From the NCBI RefSeq assembly GCF_007556585.1, contig NZ_VJNA01000020.1, forward strand, positions 1-51,532: DNA of 51,532 bases, written 5' to 3'. Source of the DNA: Tepidimonas aquatica. Lineage in GTDB: Bacteria > Pseudomonadota > Gammaproteobacteria > Burkholderiales > Burkholderiaceae_C. The notes beneath the pieces are model-generated. The model was not told the DNA's origin. It saw only the letters and a list, made by a program, of their open reading frames with translations, and searched no databases. The position numbers were made by a program, and so were the translations under genes. Each line of letters opens with the position of its first letter. The stretch's first letter is position 1. Of the stretch, positions 13,847 to 40,409 are shown in pieces.

Positions 13847-14403
13847 CCCCGACGGCCATTGCCGATGTGCTCATCCTCACCCCGCGCGTGTTCGGGGACG
13901 AGCGTGGCTTCTTTTTGGAAAGCTTCAACCAGCGCGACTTCGAGGCGGCCACCGGGCTCAGCGGCATCGCCTTCGTGCAGGACAACCACAGCCGCAGCCG
14001 CCGCGGCGTGCTGCGAGGGCTGCACTACCAGCTGCCGCCGCACGCGCAGGGCAAGCTCGTGCGTGTGGCGCGCGGGGCGGTTTTCGATGTGGCGGTGGAC
14101 ATCCGGCGCGGCTCGCCGACCTTTGGCCGGTGGGTGGGGGTGGAGTTGAGTGAGTCCAACCACCGCCAACTCTGGATCCCGCCCGGGCTGGCGCACGGCT
14201 TTCTGACGCTGACCGACAGCGCCGACTTTCTCTACAAGGCCACCGACTACTACGCGCCCGAGTCGGAGCGCTGCATCCGGTGGGATGACCCGACGATCGG
14301 CATCGACTGGCCGTCGTTGGGCATGGCCCCGCTGCTGTCGGCCAAGGACCGGAAGGGTGCATTGATGTCGCAAGTCGTGCAGGCGGGCAGTCTTTTCATA
14401 TAG
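13831..14403 (+). CDS. rfbC: dTDP-4-dehydrorhamnose 3,5-epimerase
   Basis: RfbC (RmlC) epimerises dTDP-4-keto-6-deoxyglucose at C3 and C5. This is a 190-residue cupin with [32 protein letters not shown] holding the catalytic His, [19 protein letters not shown], and [13 protein letters not shown]. The start overlaps rfbA by 16 nt. The C-terminal extension [14 protein letters not shown] is a few residues longer than usual. It completes the rhamnose pathway within the window. Confidence 0.95.
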
Positions 14404-14425
14404 GAATCAAGTATGATCCCGCCCT

Positions 14426-15076
14426 GTGAGCCACCTGCATATCACCGCGCCCCTGTCGCCGACGCCTGAGCAGCGCGAGCGGCTGGTCGCGCTGCAGGCG
14501 GCGTTCGCCCGCGCGTGCAACCTGCTGGCCCCGGTGGTGCAGCAGCATCGCTGCTGGAACCGCGTGGCGCTGCACCACTTGGCCTACCGGCAGCTGCGGC
14601 AGGCGATGCCCGGGCTCGGCTCGCAGATGGCCTGTAACGCCATCTATTCGGTCTGCCGGGCGGCGCGCTTGGTGTATCAGCATCCGGCCAGCCCGTTTCA
14701 CGTCCAGCGCTTGGGCGCACGTCCGCTGCCGCTGCTGCGCTTCACCGACAGCTGCCCAGTATATTTTGACCGGCACACGCTGAGCGTGCGCCCCGGCGGC
14801 CTGTCGATGTTCACGCTCGATGGCCGGCTGCGCTTTGAGCTGGCGCTGCCGGAACAGCTGGTGCAGGCGTTCGGCCGCCTTCGGCTGCGCGAGGTGGTTC
14901 TGACCGGTGCGGCCGAGGCGGCGTATGCGCTGACGTTTTCGCTCGGCGACGCCGAGGCCGCCGCGGACGAAGCGCAGCCCGAGCTGCACGTCCAGCCCGG
15001 GGACGAGGGCGAATGCTCCGTCCTCTGGCCCCCCTATCTCCAAGTGGAGCCTGCATCCCATGTCCTCCATCCCTGA
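14426..15076 (+). CDS. TnpB-like protein reduced to the N-terminal (WED/REC) half, no RuvC domain
   Basis: This 216-residue protein resembles the N-terminal half of IS605-type TnpB/OrfB. PTPEQRERLVALQAAFARACN matches the opening strand and helix. The central helical block has WNRVALHHLAYRQLR and LGSQMACNAIYSV, the TnpB pattern of L-x-K/H-x-x-Y followed by SQMA. The next block, CPVYFDRHTLSVRPGG with LDGRLRFELALPEQ, matches the TnpB PYDDR-x-LS and LDGR strands of the WED barrel. The protein stops where RuvC-I would begin. There is no DGxD-type Asp, no second-half Glu, and no zinc ribbon. GTG 14426 was chosen; it lies 22 nt after rfbC. The stop overlaps the following ABC gene by 17 nt. Function is unknown: it may be an exapted RNA- or DNA-binding protein, or a remnant. 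Confidence 0.7.
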   Translation: MSHLHITAPLSPTPEQRERLVALQAAFARACNLLAPVVQQHRCWNRVALHHLAYRQLRQAMPGLGSQMACNAIYSVCRAARLVYQHPASPFHVQRLGARPLPLLRFTDSCPVYFDRHTLSVRPGGLSMFTLDGRLRFELALPEQLVQAFGRLRLREVVLTGAAEAAYALTFSLGDAEAAADEAQPELHVQPGDEGECSVLWPPYLQVEPASHVLHP

Positions 15077-16832
15077 TGCCGCCGGTGCTGCCCGATCCGT
15101 GGGGCTGAGCGCGGCGCTGCAGCCGCTGTGGCCGCTGGTGCGGCGCGCCTGGGGCTTTGCCGCCGTGGCGGCGCTGCTGGTGCTGGCCCCAACGTTTTAC
15201 ATGTTCGAGGTCTATGGCCGTGTGGTCACCAGCCGTAGCCACGTGACGCTATTGATGTTGACGCTAGCGGTGGTGCTGGCCTACGCCGTGATGGAGCTGC
15301 TCGAGTGGGTGCGCAGCGAAGTGATGCGTGACGCCGGCGACTGGTTCGACCGCCAGCTGGCCCCGCGCGTGGTCGATCTCATCCACGAGATGAATCTGCG
15401 CCGTCTCGGCGTCGGCAGCGTGCAGCCGATGGTGGATCTGCGCACGCTGCGCGACTTCTTCCAGCAGCCGGCCATTGCCGCGGCGATGGAGGCGCCGCTG
15501 GCGGCGGTGTTCCTGTTGATCCTGTTCCTCATTCACCCGGTGCTCGGCTGGGCGGCGCTGATCGGCGCCGTGCTGCAGGTTGGTCTGGCGTGGTGGAACG
15601 AGCGGCTGACGCAGCCGCCGCTCAGCGCCGCCAACCGCGCCGCGATCGCCGCGCAGCAGACCGCCGACGGCATGCTGCGCAACGCCGAGGTGGTGGAAGC
15701 CATGGGCATGCTGCGCGGGCTGCGCGCGCGCTGGTGGACGCTGCAGCAGGAGTTCCTGTCATTGCAGGCGCTGGCTTCCAACCGCGCCGGGGCATTCGCG
15801 GCGCTGACCAAATGGATCCAGGTCGTGTGGTCGTCGCTGCTGCTTGGGCTGGGGGCGTGGCTGGTGCTGGAAAACGCATTGCCCGGCGCCGCGGCGATGA
15901 TGATCGTCGGCTCGGTGCTGGGCGGGCGGGTGCTGGCGCCGCTGGTGCAGCTGGTCACGCAGTGGCGCACGGTCATCACGGCGCGCGATGCCTGGAAGCG
16001 GCTTGACCAGCTGCTGCGCCAGCTGCCACCGGCGCCTGAGGCGATGCCGCTGCCGGCGCCGCGCGGCCACCTGGCCGTGGAGGGCGTGCTGGTGCCGCCC
16101 CCGGGCGGGCAGGCGCCGATCCTGCGCGGCGTCAGCTTTGCCCTGCAGCCGGGCGAGGTGCTGGCGGTGGTGGGCCCCTCAGGCGCCGGCAAGACGACGC
16201 TGGCACGCGCGCTGGTGGGTCTTTGGCCGTCGCTGGGCGGCAAGGTGCGGCTGGATGGCGCCGACGTCTTTACCTGGCGCAAGGAAGAGCTTGGGCCCCA
16301 CCTGGGCTACCTGCCGCAGGGGGTGGAGCTGCTGGAAGGCACGATCGCCGAGAACATTGCCCGCTTCGGCGAGGTGGACCTGCGCCGCGTGCGCGAGGCG
16401 GCGCGTTTGGTCGGACTGGATGCCTTCATCGAAACCTTGCCGCAGGGTTACGACACCGAAGTCGGCCCCGATGGCCTGATCCTCTCCGGCGGTCAACGGC
16501 AGCGCGTGGCGCTGGCCCGCGCGCTCTACGGAGAGCCGGTGCTGGTGGTGCTGGACGAGCCCAACGCCAGCCTCGACGAGGCGGGCGACCAGGCGCTGGC
16601 GCAGGCCATCCAGACGCTCAAAGCGCGCGGCACCACCTTCGTCGTCATGACGCACCGCACCAGCATCCTGCCGGTGGTGGACAAGATGCTAGTGCTGGTT
16701 GACGGCGCCACGCGCGCCTTCGGCCCGCGCGATGAGGTGCTGGCCGCGCTGCGCGGCCAGCCGCCGGCCCAGCCGACGCCAGCCAACCCCGTGGCCACCC
16801 CCGGCCCGGCCGCCACGATGGCGGGGGTCTGA
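15060..16832 (+). CDS. Type I secretion ABC transporter, permease/ATPase subunit 1 (PrtD/RsaD type)
   Basis: This 590-residue half-transporter powers one-step export of a C-terminally signalled protein across both membranes. Membrane segments occupy about residues 30-310. The nucleotide-binding domain has Walker A GPSGAGKTT, Q-loop GYLPQGVELL, signature LSGGQRQR, Walker B VLVVLDEPNASLD and the H-loop MTHR, so it looks active. ATG 15060 overlaps the TnpB-like gene, with AAGTGGAG upstream. A second, similar ABC gene follows 11 nt on, so the transporter is probably a heterodimer. This is unlike the single PrtD/RsaD of classical systems. Confidence 0.92.
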   Translation: MSSIPDAAGAARSVGLSAALQPLWPLVRRAWGFAAVAALLVLAPTFYMFEVYGRVVTSRSHVTLLMLTLAVVLAYAVMELLEWVRSEVMRDAGDWFDRQLAPRVVDLIHEMNLRRLGVGSVQPMVDLRTLRDFFQQPAIAAAMEAPLAAVFLLILFLIHPVLGWAALIGAVLQVGLAWWNERLTQPPLSAANRAAIAAQQTADGMLRNAEVVEAMGMLRGLRARWWTLQQEFLSLQALASNRAGAFAALTKWIQVVWSSLLLGLGAWLVLENALPGAAAMMIVGSVLGGRVLAPLVQLVTQWRTVITARDAWKRLDQLLRQLPPAPEAMPLPAPRGHLAVEGVLVPPPGGQAPILRGVSFALQPGEVLAVVGPSGAGKTTLARALVGLWPSLGGKVRLDGADVFTWRKEELGPHLGYLPQGVELLEGTIAENIARFGEVDLRRVREAARLVGLDAFIETLPQGYDTEVGPDGLILSGGQRQRVALARALYGEPVLVVLDEPNASLDEAGDQALAQAIQTLKARGTTFVVMTHRTSILPVVDKMLVLVDGATRAFGPRDEVLAALRGQPPAQPTPANPVATPGPAATMAGV

Positions 16833-16843
16833 AAGCGAACGCC

Positions 16844-18604
16844 ATGTCACAGAAAGCCAACGTGTCCAATCCCAAGCCGCGCGGCAGCGAGCTGCGCCGC
16901 ACGCTGTGGGCCTTCCGGCGCGAGTTCTATGCGGTTGGCCTGTTCAGCATGATTGCCAACGTGCTGATGCTGACGCCGACGCTCTACATGCTGCAGGTGT
17001 ATGACCGCGTCCTCATCAGCCGCAGCGAGCTGACGCTGCTGGCGGTGTCGCTGCTGGCGCTGTTTTTGCTTGCCATCATGGCGGTGGCGGAATGGCTGCG
17101 CTCGCGCGTGCTGGTGCGCGTGGGCATGCGCATCGATGACGTGCTCAGCAACCGGGTCTTCCAGGCGTCGTTCGACGCCAGCCTCGGCCCCAACGACGCG
17201 CGCCAGGGCCGTGCGTTTGCGGACCTGACCGAGCTGCGCCAGTTCATCACCGGCAATGGGGTGCTGGCGTTCTTCGACCTGCCGTGGGTGCCGGTCTACA
17301 TCGCCGTGCTGTTCGTGATGCACCCGCTGCTCGGGTGGCTGGCGATCGGCTTTGCGCTTGTGCAGACCGCCATGGCCTGGTGGGGGCACCGCAGCGCGCT
17401 CGTGCCCATCGAGGCGCTGCAGCGCATGCAACAGGAGGAAAGCCGCTTCCTGCAGGCTAAACTGCGCAACGCCGAGGTGGTGCAGGCCATGGGGATGCTG
17501 CCGGGGCTGAAGGCGCGCTGGCAGCGCCGCCACGACGAGGTGCTGGAGCAGCACGCGCGCACGCACGCCCGCTCGCACCGCGCCACCGCCTGGAGCAAGT
17601 TCGTGCGCTACTGCCAGCAGTCCTTCATGCTGGGCGCGGGCGCGCTGCTGGTCATCGATGGCGAACTCACCGCGGGCGCGATGATCGCCGCCAGCGTGCT
17701 GGGCACGCGGGCGCTCGCGCCGATCGACCTACTGGTCGGCACGTGGAAGGGGTTCTTGAGCGCCCGCATGGCCTGGCAGCGGCTGGAGCGGCTGCTGCAG
17801 CGGCACCCGCCGCGCGACACAGCGCTGCGCCGTGTGGCCCCGCAGGGGCTGCTGACGCTGCGCGGCGTGGTGGCCAGCGCCGCGGGCCGCGCCGAGCCCA
17901 TTCTCAAGGGCATCGACCTCGAATGCCGGCCCGGCACCGTCACGGTGGTGATGGGGCCGTCTGGCAGCGGCAAATCGACGCTGGCGCGCGTCATCGTGGG
18001 CATCTGGCCGCAGGTGCAGGGGGAGGTGCTGCTCGACGGCCTGCCGCTGGACGGCTGGAACCGCGATGAGCTCGGGCCCCACCTCGGCTACCTGCCGCAG
18101 GACATCGAAGTGTTCGACGGCACCATCGCGCAAAACATCGCCCGCATGGACGAGCCGGATGCCGAGGCCGTCGTGCGCGCCGCCCGCACCACCGGGCTAC
18201 ACGCTGCCATCCTGCGTTTTCCCAAGGGCTACGACACGCCGATGGGCGAGGCCGGCCAGCTGCTCTCCGGCGGGCAGCGCCAGCGCGTCGCCTTGGCGCG
18301 CGCGCTCTACGGCGAGCCGCGCCTCGTGGTGCTGGACGAGCCCAACGCCAATCTCGACGACGCCGGCGAGGCCGCGCTGCAGCAGGCGCTGCAGGCGCTC
18401 AAGGCCGAGCGGCGCACCGTGGTCGTCATCTCCCACCGCCCGGGCGTGCTCGCGGTGGCCGACCGCGTGGTGCTGATGCGCGACGGGCGCATCGTCGCGC
18501 AGGGTCCGCGCGATCAGGTGCTGGCCGCGCTGCGCCCGGGCGCAGCCCCGGCGGCCGCCATGCCTGCCGCACCCGAGGGCGGCGGCCTGCCCGCCGTGGC
18601 TTGA
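16844..18604 (+). CDS. Type I secretion ABC transporter, permease/ATPase subunit 2 (PrtD/RsaD type)
   Basis: This 586-residue paralogue of the preceding gene has the same layout. The membrane domain lies at about residues 25-310. The ATPase domain has Walker A GPSGSGKST, Q-loop LPQDIEVFDGTIAQNIARM, signature LSGGQRQRVALARALYG, Walker B LVVLDEPNANLDDAG and H-loop ISHRPGVL. Both subunits keep a complete set of motifs, so neither nucleotide site is obviously degenerate. Residues after about 555 are Ala/Pro-rich. It is tightly linked to the HlyD and TolC genes downstream. Confidence 0.92.
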   Translation: MSQKANVSNPKPRGSELRRTLWAFRREFYAVGLFSMIANVLMLTPTLYMLQVYDRVLISRSELTLLAVSLLALFLLAIMAVAEWLRSRVLVRVGMRIDDVLSNRVFQASFDASLGPNDARQGRAFADLTELRQFITGNGVLAFFDLPWVPVYIAVLFVMHPLLGWLAIGFALVQTAMAWWGHRSALVPIEALQRMQQEESRFLQAKLRNAEVVQAMGMLPGLKARWQRRHDEVLEQHARTHARSHRATAWSKFVRYCQQSFMLGAGALLVIDGELTAGAMIAASVLGTRALAPIDLLVGTWKGFLSARMAWQRLERLLQRHPPRDTALRRVAPQGLLTLRGVVASAAGRAEPILKGIDLECRPGTVTVVMGPSGSGKSTLARVIVGIWPQVQGEVLLDGLPLDGWNRDELGPHLGYLPQDIEVFDGTIAQNIARMDEPDAEAVVRAARTTGLHAAILRFPKGYDTPMGEAGQLLSGGQRQRVALARALYGEPRLVVLDEPNANLDDAGEAALQQALQALKAERRTVVVISHRPGVLAVADRVVLMRDGRIVAQGPRDQVLAALRPGAAPAAAMPAAPEGGGLPAVA

Positions 18605-18650: not shown

Positions 18651-20018
18651 ATGAACGAAATCGCTTCCCCCGCCGGCGCGCGCGCCGGCGTCCCGGCCGA
18701 GGGTGATGCCTCCCCCGGCGCCGACCGCCTGCTGCCCCGGCCTGCCAGCCGCGCCACGCGCTGGGGCGTGCTGGCGGTGCTGCTGGGCTTCGGCGGCTTT
18801 CTCGCCTGGGCGGCGCTGGCGCCGCTGGACGAGGGCGTGCCCGCCCACGGGGTCGTCGCCATCGACACCAAGCGCAAGGCCGTGCAGCACTTGAGTGGCG
18901 GCATCGTGCGCCAGGTCCTCGTGCGCGAAGGCGACGTCGTGCAGGAGCAGCAGCCGCTGATCCTGCTGGACGACAAGACCGCGCGCGCCAATTACGAGGC
19001 CGTGCGCCAGCGCTACCTCGGTCTGCGGGCGATGCAGGGTCGCCTGCTGGCCGAGCAGGTCGGCAGCGCCAGCATCGCCTGGCACGAGGATCTGCTCGCG
19101 GCGCGCGACGACCCGTGGATCGCGGCCCAGATGCAGGCCCAGCAGCAGCTGCTGCGCTCGCGCCGTGAGGGGCTGCAGGCGGAGCTGCGCGCGATCGACG
19201 AGGCCATCGAGGGCCAGCAGGCGCTGCTGCGCGCCTACCAGGGCGTGCTGCCGAGCCGGCGCGAGCAGCTGGTGTTGTTGCAGGAAGACCTGCGCAACAT
19301 CGCCAGCCTCGTGGCCGAAGGTTACGCACCGCGCTTGCGCCAGAGCGAACTGCAGCGCCAGGTGGCCGAGCTGCAGGCCCAGCAGACCGAGCTGCTCGGC
19401 AATATCGAGCGCGCGCAGCGCGCGATCGCCGAGCTGCGCCAGCGCGCGCTGGCGCGCCAGCAGGACTACCGCAAGGATGTCGAAAACGAGCTCACCCGCG
19501 TCAACCTCGAGGCGCAGGCCGATGCCGAGCGCTACCGTGCGGCGCTTGCAGATTTGCAGCGCACCGAGATCCGCGCTCCCGCGGCCGGACAGGTGGTGGG
19601 GCTGGCGGTGCAGACCGTCGGTGCTGTCATTCAGCCCGGCCAAAAGCTGATGGACATTGTGCCGGAAGACGAGCTGCTGCTGCTGGAGGCACGGCTGGAG
19701 CCGCACCTCATCGCCAAGGTCGGGCCGGGCCTGCGGACCGATGTGCGCTTCTCCACCTTCTCGCACGACCCGCAGCTGGTGGTGGAGGGGGAGGTTGTCT
19801 CCGTCTCCGGCGACCTGCTCACTGACCCGCACACCGGCGCGGGCTTTTACCTGTTGCGCGTGGTGCTCACGCCGCAAGGTATGGCGGCGCTCGGGCAACG
19901 CCGCTTGCAGCCGGGCATGCCGGCCGACATCATCATCAAAACGGGTGAGCGTTCGTTGCTGACCTACCTGATGGGCCCGCTGGTGCGCCGGGTCGCCGCC
20001 AGTCTCAAGGAGGAGTGA
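18651..20018 (+). CDS. HlyD-family type I secretion periplasmic adaptor
   Basis: The membrane-fusion protein bridges the ABC pump and TolC channel. The 455-residue protein has a short cytoplasmic head, one transmembrane helix (WGVLAVLLGFGGFLAWAAL) and a barrel-sandwich half with TKRKAVQHLSGGIV. A long coiled-coil follows at about residues 100-305, very rich in Gln, Glu, Arg and Leu. After that come the second sandwich half TEIRAPAAGQVVGLAV and the C-terminal beta domain ending at ADIIIKTGERSLLTYLMGPL, typical of HlyD/PrtE. ATG 18651 follows a 46-nt gap. Confidence 0.94.
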   Translation: MNEIASPAGARAGVPAEGDASPGADRLLPRPASRATRWGVLAVLLGFGGFLAWAALAPLDEGVPAHGVVAIDTKRKAVQHLSGGIVRQVLVREGDVVQEQQPLILLDDKTARANYEAVRQRYLGLRAMQGRLLAEQVGSASIAWHEDLLAARDDPWIAAQMQAQQQLLRSRREGLQAELRAIDEAIEGQQALLRAYQGVLPSRREQLVLLQEDLRNIASLVAEGYAPRLRQSELQRQVAELQAQQTELLGNIERAQRAIAELRQRALARQQDYRKDVENELTRVNLEAQADAERYRAALADLQRTEIRAPAAGQVVGLAVQTVGAVIQPGQKLMDIVPEDELLLLEARLEPHLIAKVGPGLRTDVRFSTFSHDPQLVVEGEVVSVSGDLLTDPHTGAGFYLLRVVLTPQGMAALGQRRLQPGMPADIIIKTGERSLLTYLMGPLVRRVAASLKEE

Positions 20019-38345: not shown

Positions 38346-38440
38346 TGGAGGATCACGGTTCCTTCTCCGACCTCGACAAGCCAGGAGCCATGGAGGGGGG
38401 CTGCGAGAGCTGGTGGGGAGAGTGTTGCCAAAATGAATGA
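38345..38440 (+). CDS. 31-residue peptide, coupled between the P-loop gene and a truncated gene
   Basis: The ATG overlaps the stop of the P-loop gene (TAATG), and the TGA overlaps the next ATG (ATGA). The short product is acidic and contains three Cys and two Trp in CESWWGECC near its C-terminus. There is no signal peptide and no hydrophobic stretch. The tight double overlap supports translation. A peptide with clustered Cys and Trp could be a small metal-binding protein or a substrate of modification, but nothing in the window proves either. Confidence 0.45.
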   Translation: MEDHGSFSDLDKPGAMEGGCESWWGECCQNE

Positions 38441-38583
38441 GCGAGCTGCTTCTTGACCGGCCGGCAAAGCTGGCCGAACTCGACGCCATCGAAGCCGAAT
38501 CCATCGGCTGGCTGCCGCTGGGCGAAGGCGCCTATCTCCATCTGGGCAAGCCGGATGAGGAAGAGGTCGTGATCACCGTGGTG
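38437..38583 (+). pseudogene. Truncated gene fragment, 5' part only
   Basis: An ATG overlapping the stop of the 31-residue peptide opens a frame whose first 49 residues look like real coding sequence (SELLLDRPAKLAELDAIEAE, then LGKPDEEEVVITVV). After about 38583 the frame runs on to 38769 only as the antisense of the TnpB-like fragment, so its true 3' half is missing. No family recognised. Confidence 0.5.
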
Positions 38584-38937
38584 GGTGTGGCGATCGAAAT
38601 AGACTGGGCAGCTTTCCGAGAAGCGGAGCAGTGGCAAAGTTTTGTTGCCCCAGCGTTGAATATGAAACGGGCTTTGCGGATGTTGAAATGCCAAACGCGC
38701 CGATCGACAGACGGAGTAAATGGCATTGCACGCCATTTGCGAACCGAGCGCAGGAAGATTTTCGCGTAGTGCGCGGTACGCCAAATGGTGTAACGCAACA
38801 CGGTTCCAGCAGCGATGTTGCCTTACGATGGGGGCCAAAAAATTGCAGGCTTGGGCAAACGTCCGCTGCAGATCCCGGAGCCGCGCCGCTTGGTCGGGTG
38901 ATGTGGCAAGCGGTACACAGATCCGGAGGAAGTTCAT
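38584..38937 (-). pseudogene. TnpB-like N-terminal fragment, second copy, 3' truncated
   Basis: Residues 1-118 align without gaps to the protein at 14426, with 83 identical positions by hand count (about 70%), including HRCWNRVALHHLAYR, LGSQMACNAIYSVCR and SCPVYFDRHT. Homology stops exactly at RHT. The frame then continues to 38353 as the antisense of the adjacent truncated gene, so the WED-like C-terminal part is gone. The start is ATG 38937, which aligns with GTG 14426; a longer frame begins at 38967. A recombination or deletion joined two genes tail to tail. Confidence 0.7.
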
Positions 38938-38967
38938 ATAGGACGTAGTGTAGCACGGTTTTGACAC

Positions 38968-39023: not shown

Positions 39024-40208
39024 TCAGCGCGCGATCCCCGCCAAATCCCGCAACACCGCCACCTTGTCGGTGCGCTCCCAGGTGAACTCCGGCTCATCGC
39101 GGCCGAAGTGGCCGTAGGCGGCGGTTTTGCTGTAGATGGGCCGCAGCAGGTCCAGCATCTGGATGATGCCCTTGGGCCGCAGGTCGAACACCTCGCCCAC
39201 GATCTTGGCGATCTTGTCGTCGGGGATGACGCCGGTGCCTTCGGTGTACACCGTCACGTTGATGGGGCGGGCCATGCCGATGGCGTAGCTGACCTGGATC
39301 TGGCACTGACGAGCCAGGCCGGCGGCGACGATGTTCTTGGCCACGTAACGCGCGGCATAGGCGGCTGAGCGGTCCACTTTGGTCGGGTCTTTGCCGCTGA
39401 AGGCGCCGCCGCCGTGCGGGCAGGCCCCGCCGTAGGTGTCGACGATGATCTTGCGCCCGGTCAAGCCGCAATCACCCTGCGGTCCGCCCACCACAAAGCG
39501 ACCGGTCGGGTTGATCAGGTAGCGTGTGTTGTGCAGCCACTCCTTGGGCAACACGGGCTTGATGATTTCCTCGATGCACGCCTCGATGAAGGCCGGCTTC
39601 ATGTGTTTGCCGTCGCTCATCTCCGGGCTGTGCTGGCTGGACAGCACCACGGTGTCGATGCTGTGCGGGCGGCCGTCGACGTAGCGCATTGTGATCTGGC
39701 TCTTGGCGTCCGGGCGCAGGAACGGCAGCCGCCCATCTTTGCGAAGTTGCGCCTGGCGCTCGACGATGCGGTGCGCATAGTAGATCGGCGCCGGCATCAG
39801 CTCGGGCGTTTCGTCGCAGGCGTAGCCGAACATCAGACCTTGGTCGCCCGCGCCGGTGTTGAGGTAGTCGTCCGACGCATGGTCCACGCCCTGGGCGATG
39901 TCGTAGCTTTGCTTGTCGTAGGCCACCAGCACCGCGCAGCCTTTGTAGTCGATGCCGTACTCGGTGTTGTCGTAGCCGATGCGCTTGATGGTGTTGCGCG
40001 CCACTTGGATGTAGTCCACGTGCGCGTTGGTGGTGATTTCACCGGCCAGCACCACCAGGCCGGTGTTGCACAGCGTCTCGGCCGCCACGCGGCTGCGCGG
40101 GTCTTGCTCGAGGATGGCGTCGAGGATGGCGTCCGAGATCTGGTCGGCCACCTTGTCCGGGTGGCCTTCGGAGACCGATTCGCTGGTGAAAAGAAAGTCG
40201 TTCGCCAT
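39024..40208 (-). CDS. metK: S-adenosylmethionine synthetase
   Basis: MetK makes SAM from methionine and ATP in the cytoplasm. The 394-residue protein has [21 protein letters not shown] at the N-terminus, [15 protein letters not shown], and the P-loop-like [23 protein letters not shown]. Length is normal. ATG 40208 was chosen because homology starts at [11 protein letters not shown], and AAGGAG lies 10 nt upstream. The SAM made here serves all methyltransferases in the window. It is divergent from the lauroyl transferase gene. Confidence 0.97.
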
Positions 40209-40239
40209 GGTTGCTACACTCCTTAGGAATCGTGGGGCG

Positions 40240-40254
40240 CCGGCGTTGCGCCGG
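40240..40254 (-). promoter_or_regulatory. Hairpin in the metK leader
   Basis: CCGGCG-CAA-CGCCGG forms a perfect 6-bp stem about 15 nt upstream of the metK ribosome-binding site (AAGGAG). Candidate -10 TAGAAT lies further up, at about 40339-40344 on the minus strand. The rest of 40209-40409 shows no further gene. I could not match the leader to a known SAM or SAH riboswitch. Confidence 0.35.
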
Positions 40255-40409
40255 TCCCTCACAGGGGCGTGATGGCGAACGCTTTAGCGGCATTTGTGAA
40301 TCGCCCGCAAGTAGTTCAGTAACTCGGCGATAGGATGCCATTCTAACCGAAAGGATGTGCCGAGGGTGCGGCACGCCTTGTTGCCCCTTGGGGGCTGCAC
40401 AACGCAACG

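Follow-up and report, generated by a model that had tools for sequence, protein, structure and literature searches.

What could one half of a TnpB protein be doing at the head of a secretion operon? The question is raised by an ORF in the 2.67 Mb genome of Tepidimonas aquatica, within the 51,532-nt stretch of contig NZ_VJNA01000020.1 that was analysed here as a whole (the window), in which the original prediction saw a RuvC-less TnpB-like protein, retained and domesticated rather than left over as a random fragment. The ORF at 14426–15076 is real, with 216 codons counted from a GTG, and the TnpB-like motifs quoted for it are found in its product. The spacing described for its neighbours was also found, with the rfbC stop at 14403 leaving a gap of 22 nt before the ORF and the end of the ORF reaching 17 nt past the start of the downstream ABC gene (ATG at 15060). 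Here we refer to the product as half-TnpB. The genes of the window with which we are concerned are the following:

14426..15076, + strand: REC-lobe-only TnpB derivative (WED and REC, no RuvC or zinc ribbon), GTG start, 216 aa, gene 1 of the secretion operon
15060..16832, + strand: type I secretion ABC permease/ATPase 1 (ABC1), PrtD type, TIGR01842, overlapping the half-TnpB stop by 17 nt
16844..18604, + strand: second ABC permease/ATPase (ABC2), 46% identical to ABC1
18651..20018, + strand: HlyD-family periplasmic adaptor, TIGR01843
20023..21402, + strand: TolC-family outer membrane protein, TIGR01844
33063..36023, + strand: DUF4214 and RTX nonapeptide-repeat protein, 986 aa, candidate secretion substrate
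38353..38967, - strand: second, truncated copy of half-TnpB, with residues 1–118 (38584–38937) 70% identical to the first copy and unrelated sequence thereafter

The ABC, HlyD-adaptor and TolC genes form a type I secretion operon, with TIGR01842, TIGR01843 and TIGR01844 all matched above cut-off. The 986-aa DUF4214/RTX protein is a candidate substrate of this secretion system, and a link to the S-layer, suggested at first, found no support in any analysis. Glycosyltransferase and nucleotide-sugar genes lie near the candidate substrate gene. No secretion gene was found among the neighbours scanned around the truncated copy, and the gene beside it (39024–40262) was recognised by eye as what we take to be an S-adenosylmethionine synthetase.

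Half-TnpB as the recognition lobe of TnpB

The window protein matched nothing in Pfam at E ≤ 10, its sole NCBIfam match had E 0.08, a PDB sequence search gave nothing useful, and the best Pfam match of nine homologues had E 0.025. As these searches were uninformative, TnpB homology was judged by comparing profiles, sequences and folds. The family profile (79 homologues) aligned with 10 TnpBs of the related clade by hhalign with probability 100, an E value of 1.4e-42 and 32% identity over 169 columns, the matched region being the N-terminal half of TnpB. The N-terminal parts of seven longer proteins from G054 (427–439 aa) and of one from G083 (396 aa) align with half-TnpB as well, and RuvC motifs and a zinc ribbon are present in the long relatives that were translated (4 of the 7 from G054, plus the G083 protein). 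Among the 10 clade TnpBs, the predicted D-E-D residues and zinc-ribbon cysteines fall in invariant columns, whereas half-TnpB stops before RuvC, and no in-frame GxDxG RuvC motif was found in 88 family loci (80 best-of-217 loci and 8 longer fetches, genomes partly overlapping). The N-terminal TnpB identity and the lack of RuvC and zinc ribbon, both read at first from the window alone, were thus borne out.

The AlphaFold model of the window protein (pLDDT 90.5, pTM 0.87) was compared with the PDB by Foldseek, and its first matches were TnpB and Cas12f, as the original prediction would have it. Ranks 1–26 were all Cas12f, TnpB, Cas12k, Cas12n, Fanzor or TranC, five of them with E ≤ 0.001, and the TM-scores were moderate (0.42–0.57 by query length, ranks 1–17). 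The ISDra2 TnpB structure 8ex9, in which RuvC is unresolved, gave a TM-score of 0.58 by target length with E 3e-3. In ISDra2 TnpB (PMC10097598), WED (residues 1–12 and 117–176) and REC (13–116) form the recognition lobe, all the TAM contacts listed fall in these two domains (residues 1–176), and binding of the wRNA scaffold falls mostly to WED and RuvC. The window protein is this WED and REC lobe plus a short tail.

The tail (residues 188–208, 14987–15049) follows a variable linker, has the consensus PEYVMVE in the 79-member alignment and is predicted by AlphaFold to form strands. It lies near where the first RuvC strand of a TnpB would begin, and could represent either a remnant or a newly formed contact surface.

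Residues Y54, C70 and D115 are invariant in 79/79 family rows and 10/10 TnpB rows and align to Y52, Q80 and T123 of ISDra2; K76 and F77 both fall in an alignment gap against ISDra2, so that their register is uncertain. By sequence alignment, the TAM-contact residues of ISDra2 are mostly non-identical in half-TnpB, which counts against the TAM-derived operator considered below. In a maximum-likelihood tree of the lobe, sampled from 33 of the 79 family alignment rows and 13 TnpBs, the family members separated from the TnpBs with an ultrafast bootstrap of 94, for which a single domestication event would be the simplest reading.

Distribution of the family and its place before the secretion genes

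Among 60 relatives, a full-length short homologue was detected in nine genomes, that of T. aquatica included. A scan of the genome collection gave 217 relatives, and the locus counts given here rest on the best 80 of these 217. The 80 are nearly all from beta-proteobacteria, mostly Burkholderiales, and belong to Tepidimonas, Acidovorax, Comamonas, Delftia, Polaromonas, Rhodoferax, Ramlibacter, Limnohabitans, Thauera and other genera. In 200 family genomes, the full-length protein was found in 16, leaving out the fragments or weak matches of G433, G466, G523 and G590, while the class-wide search (274 genomes) found the two copies of T. aquatica and otherwise distant TnpBs only, which later served as controls. 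A plasmid search returned 11 records, none with a place covering 80% of the query, where the annotation was TnpB family protein in 7, transposase in 2, hypothetical protein in 1 and none in 1.

The frame was open in all 80 loci (best 80 of 217; in L059 and L097 a contig edge interrupts it), and lengths from the chosen starts were 192–228 aa with the single exception of L100 (317 aa), which has a long tail. Compared with its closest homologue L030 over 215 codons (NG86), the window gene had a dN of 0.155 and a dS of 0.81 (dN/dS ~0.19). The 79-member alignment, made of the window protein, 76 of the best 80 loci, L008 and L009 (L059, L079, L097 and L100 were omitted), has 47 invariant columns.

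Directly downstream of half-TnpB, ABC1 was found in 78 of the best 80 of 217 loci; the other two (L060 and L097) end at a contig edge and were dropped from the operon count. Judged by this position, the family does not occupy the varied genome places of a mobile TnpB. In 72 of the 78 loci the end of half-TnpB overlaps or touches ABC1, and in the other 6 there are gaps of 1–42 nt (extrapolated from alignments). Wherever the contig left room in these best 80 loci, ABC2 came next in 70/70, HlyD in 67/67 and TolC in 61/62. On the other hand, rfbC was present in only 2 of the 80 fetched flanks (L088 and L095), ~2.9 kb off, and the conserved partner of half-TnpB is the secretion operon, not rfbC.

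The same association was seen from the side of the transporter. Among the 60 relatives, an ABC1 with at least 57% identity over most of its length occurred in exactly the nine half-TnpB genomes. A near miss was G018 (65% complete), where ABC1 is split on two contigs with 52% identity over residues 1–460 and 67% over 456–566; no half-TnpB homologue was found in this incomplete genome. Near the distant ABC1 homologues of G016, G017, G018, G050 and G051 (best match 41–52%), neither the protein nor the operator described below was found in the 1.5 kb upstream. The homologues are thus intact frames with fixed secretion-gene neighbours rather than scattered pseudogenes, and the data support reading the window ORF as a TnpB derivative without RuvC that was retained, domesticated and linked to secretion genes.

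An 11-bp site at the promoter and over the start codon

The upstream regions of the family have in common an 11-bp element, TTCATATAGGA, often present as an inverted pair flanking the -10, with one copy over the start codon. The corresponding features of the window are:

14395..14405, + strand: predicted operator half-site with the sequence TTCATATAGGA (first five bases TTCAT), lying shortly before the -10-like hexamer
14412..14417, + strand: -10-like hexamer TATGAT, recognised by eye, ending 8 nt before the GTG, with a similar layout in relatives
38933..38943, - strand: predicted operator half-site covering the truncated copy's start codon; its - strand sequence is TCCTATATGAA

With this layout, the half-TnpB mRNA of the window would be almost leaderless; a sigma-70 consensus scan called no promoter in 14300–14500. 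The window promoter has one clear half-site and no pair, which, like the negative promoter scan, counts against the operator reading, and in its closest relatives (L030, L031 and L032) as well, only the upstream half-site is clear.

Within the best 80 of 217 loci, a palindromic form of the site was matched at 10 or more of 12 positions within 260 nt of the conserved codon in 79, where shuffles expect 0.6/80; the one locus missing it, L059, begins at a contig edge and was left out of the PWM. In a k-mer scan of 77 of these 80 loci (without L059, L060 and L097), covering up to ~6 kb on each side, TCCTATATGAA was the most widely shared 11-mer (62/77) and TTCATATAGGA was present in 54/77, both only in the promoter region. 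Across 76 upstream sites, ten of the 11 positions are conserved in 71–76, position 9 is G in 58, T in 13 and A in 5, and conservation drops sharply outside the site. These sites were picked by their best consensus match, which inflates the inner counts and leaves the sharp edges unaffected.

Of the 57 loci among the best 80 that have paired sites, 55 carry a TANNNT hexamer in the interval, compared with 24% of shuffles, and in 41 the sites start 26–28 bp apart. The start codon falls inside the second site in 58 of the 80. At one mismatch, two sites were counted in 61 of these loci, one in 12, three in 6 and none in 1 (L059), and inverted, back-to-back and direct arrangements all occur; L115 has direct repeats ahead of its start, and L420 and L421 have them at the head of the operon. 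Such variation in number and order fits each 11-bp site being bound on its own. Like operon autorepressors, the family has a conserved operator that extends across the core promoter in front of its own operon, with the exception of G176, the promoter being placed by the TANNNT hexamers.

The site is also confined to the gene. Allowing one mismatch, the T. aquatica genome contains TTTCATATAKGA at the two gene copies and nowhere else. In the 200 family genomes searched, the exact half-site was present in 15 of the 16 with a full-length protein and every occurrence lay beside a gene copy, so that no wider regulon appeared among exact half-sites of these 15 genomes, nor at one mismatch in the genome of T. 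aquatica, where alone that search was made. The sixteenth genome (G034) has only a 9/11 match, which counts against the operator reading, as do the stray exact sites in 29 of the 184 family genomes that lack a full-length protein. In 399 order genomes, the strict paired pattern was found once, at the homologue of that genome, and in six of the nine order genomes with a full-length protein the gene is accompanied by sites that are exact or differ at one position.

Two of the other three are instructive. In G171 (L420) and G131 (L421) another ORF precedes half-TnpB, and two direct sites, 16 bp apart, lie before that ORF, ~1.5 and 2.2 kb upstream. Sites at a new operon head argue against simple inheritance of a start-codon sequence. 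In the ninth genome, G176 (L422), no site with up to one mismatch was found in 12 kb, though the gene and the ABC genes are intact, and this counts against the operator reading. The half-TnpB of G176 has a different N-terminus. A 14-bp version of the site in viral contigs was mostly a matter of chance, since among 120 matches listed only one (L338) starts a TnpB.

A relative of the site was seen in G032, where three palindromes, TTCATATATGA / TCATATATGA, lie within ~90 bp (L145, G032:C1:484379-484467). No half-TnpB homologue was found in this genome, and the palindromes may be the operator of another regulator.

In IS200/IS605 elements, the motif flanking the left end serves as the TAM of the TnpB. 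The related TnpB element of G054 is present in 7 copies, six of which have TTCAT followed by AGAA at the left end with differing outer flanks, the seventh being shorter on the left; in G129 the left end is TTCAT in 3/3 elements. By eye, TCAT precedes the left end of the phage-contig elements L374, L375, L376, L378, L247, L248 and L249, and GTCAT is found at that of L119. The 5′ end of the operator, TTCAT, thus matches the left-end target and presumed TAM of the related TnpBs, and the operator would be the presumed clade TAM plus six bases. For comparison, the TAM of ISDra2 is TTGAT (PMC10097598).

The same site turned up in full-length TnpBs. Of 11 standalone TnpBs with no tnpA before them by eye, eight have at least 10/11 of it across the start codon, namely L247 (cut by the contig end), L248, L411, L412, L413, L414, L415 and L418; weaker matches were seen in L119 and L416 (8/11) and L417 (6/11). 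In phage-contig TnpBs (L247, L248, L374, L375, L376, L378, L412 and L415), the site, at 10 or 11/11, covers the gene's own start codon and comes right after the -10. No control TnpB of other clades reached 9/11 (0/16; 20 were offered and 4 dropped, with the start not found or a frame below 250 aa), and the site was absent in 5/5 TnpBs after tnpA or its remnant (L252, as annotated, and by eye G054 and three G129 copies). Shuffled TnpB start regions average ~7, with single shuffles of the AT-rich L247 and L248 reaching 10, and the eight positive TnpBs are related and partly of recent common ancestry, hence not independent events. From these sequences, the start-codon site would appear older than the truncation of TnpB, and it is possible that TnpBs of the clade autoregulate through it. 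The guides of such TnpBs derive from variable flanks, which suggests that they do not determine the fixed six-base stretch behind the TAM.

A putative autorepressor and its alternatives

We propose that half-TnpB is a TAM-reading lobe that became fixed in first position in a type I secretion operon with two ABC genes, and that would bind directly, without a guide RNA, to the 11-bp operator, whose 5′ end would be the ancestral TAM. Protein bound to the copies flanking the -10 and to the one over the start codon would block RNA polymerase; by such a block half-TnpB would repress its own operon and set the level of the secretion machine, with negative feedback as the outcome. Binding of the 11-bp site by half-TnpB itself is, on the sequence evidence, very likely; given binding, repression is likely, and an RNA-free mode of binding is probable. 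That half-TnpB both binds the site and represses its own operon, to which TAM identity and site confinement point, we consider somewhat better than an even bet, while the whole, with binding, repression and no guide RNA, falls a little short of one. Guide-free binding is the most likely mode because the lobe that helps to hold the guide scaffold and closes the heteroduplex channel has been lost, and the searches turned up no candidate guide.

The strongest alternative, unlikely in our view, is a minimal RNA-guided repressor with a fixed guide RNA encoded elsewhere, for which the operator would be the TAM (TTCAT) plus a six-base seed match (ATAGGA). TldR depends on guide seed nucleotides 1–6 (PMC13418256), and since the operator is exactly the TAM plus 6 bp, a fixed guide could also explain the site; WED, moreover, contributes to scaffold binding in TnpB (PMC10097598). 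A trans-encoded guide RNA is possible. Against it, the half of the RNA/heteroduplex channel that RuvC would supply is absent, and the same six bases stand at the start codons of TnpBs whose guides come from variable flanks. Nor did the searches for a guide favour it: among the 70 most shared 11-mers listed from the k-mer scan (77 loci, ~6 kb on each side), only the operator was non-coding by position, though the scan would miss an RNA conserved in structure and not in sequence. No exact match to the TnpB right end fused to ATADGA was found in 21 protein-carrying genomes, where one-mismatch fusions numbered 8, against 11 in the reversed control. An Rfam scan found nothing in the window, nor in six TnpB control loci, and was thus uninformative.

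Less likely again is that the 11-bp site is bound by a host regulator with no link to the operon and that half-TnpB has another job, for example as a secretion accessory factor. Co-conservation alone cannot tell which protein binds, and the palindromic relative of the site occurs three times in G032, where half-TnpB was not found; against this, in 15/15 genomes having both, the exact site is only at the half-TnpB gene, it also occurs at related TnpB genes in phage contigs, and it starts with the target/TAM sequence of that TnpB clade. Post-transcriptional autoregulation, in which half-TnpB would bind the 5′ end of its own mRNA, cover the start codon and block translation, is improbable. It would agree with the start ATG being enclosed by a site (58 of the best 80 of 217 loci) and with RNA binding by the WED domain of TnpB (PMC10097598), but the other copy of the site is upstream of the -10 and hence outside the transcript, it is the only clear copy in the window, L030, L031 and L032, and direct repeats are found before the start in L115 and at the operon heads of L420 and L421. 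A non-functional insertion-sequence fragment or pseudogene, open by accident, is what the second window copy (38353–38967) truly is, but for half-TnpB itself this was rejected as next to impossible on the open frames of near-uniform length, the dN/dS, the fixed operon position and the conserved operator.

The preferred reading, direct repression by half-TnpB of its own operon, sets it beside several known systems. With the TnpBs of IS200/IS605 (G083, G054, G129 and phage contigs) it shares the WED and REC lobe at the identity given above, the left-end target/TAM (TTCAT or TCAT) and the 11-bp site over the start codon; it differs from them in having no RuvC nuclease, no zinc ribbon, no guide that could be found, and a fixed place in a secretion operon. 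TldRs, of described regulators the nearest and reportedly first presented in a 2024 Nature paper, are likewise TnpB-derived, nuclease-dead, fixed by non-transposon genes and proposed to act at a promoter, whereas in half-TnpB the whole nuclease lobe is missing and no guide was found. TldRs have a mutated RuvC domain and use a guide RNA (PMC13418256). As RuvC is absent here rather than retained and inactivated, a contrast already drawn in the original prediction, we do not file the family as TldR.

The fold of the recognition lobe is shared with Cas12f by Foldseek, and silencing by Cas12m relies on binding, not on cutting (PMC11013384, PMC10442227); these binders of Cas12f/Cas12m type, however, are full-size, CRISPR-guided effectors. 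With classical first-gene autorepressors half-TnpB would share its place as first gene, operators around the -10 and one target promoter per genome, although the DNA reader of half-TnpB would be a TnpB lobe and not a helix-turn-helix or ribbon-helix-helix. In the literature covered (titles and abstract starts, with few subscription journals), neither a RuvC-less TnpB regulator nor a TnpB in a type I secretion operon was found. Half-TnpB would be an exapted TnpB regulator, and one of a new kind if guide-free binding holds.

The described domesticated TnpB regulators, the TldRs, keep an inactivated nuclease domain and an RNA guide, while here half of the protein is gone and yet a precise operator with the ancestral TAM has been kept across many genera. 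Should the lobe read DNA by itself, TAM recognition would be a stand-alone function and a source of transcription factors. A broader scenario, which we put forward tentatively as a shade less probable than the full reading above, is that the TAM-reading lobe alone is a guide-free, sequence-specific DNA binder with which the standalone TnpBs of the clade already repress themselves by way of a TAM-bearing operator at the start codon, and that loss of the nuclease turned it into a transcription factor of a secretion operon. The site at the start codons of full-length TnpBs gives a prediction on how mobile elements restrain their own expression. The broader scenario, if true, would mean a class of transcription factors built from the Cas12/TnpB recognition lobe, together with an RNA-independent regulatory activity of TnpB.
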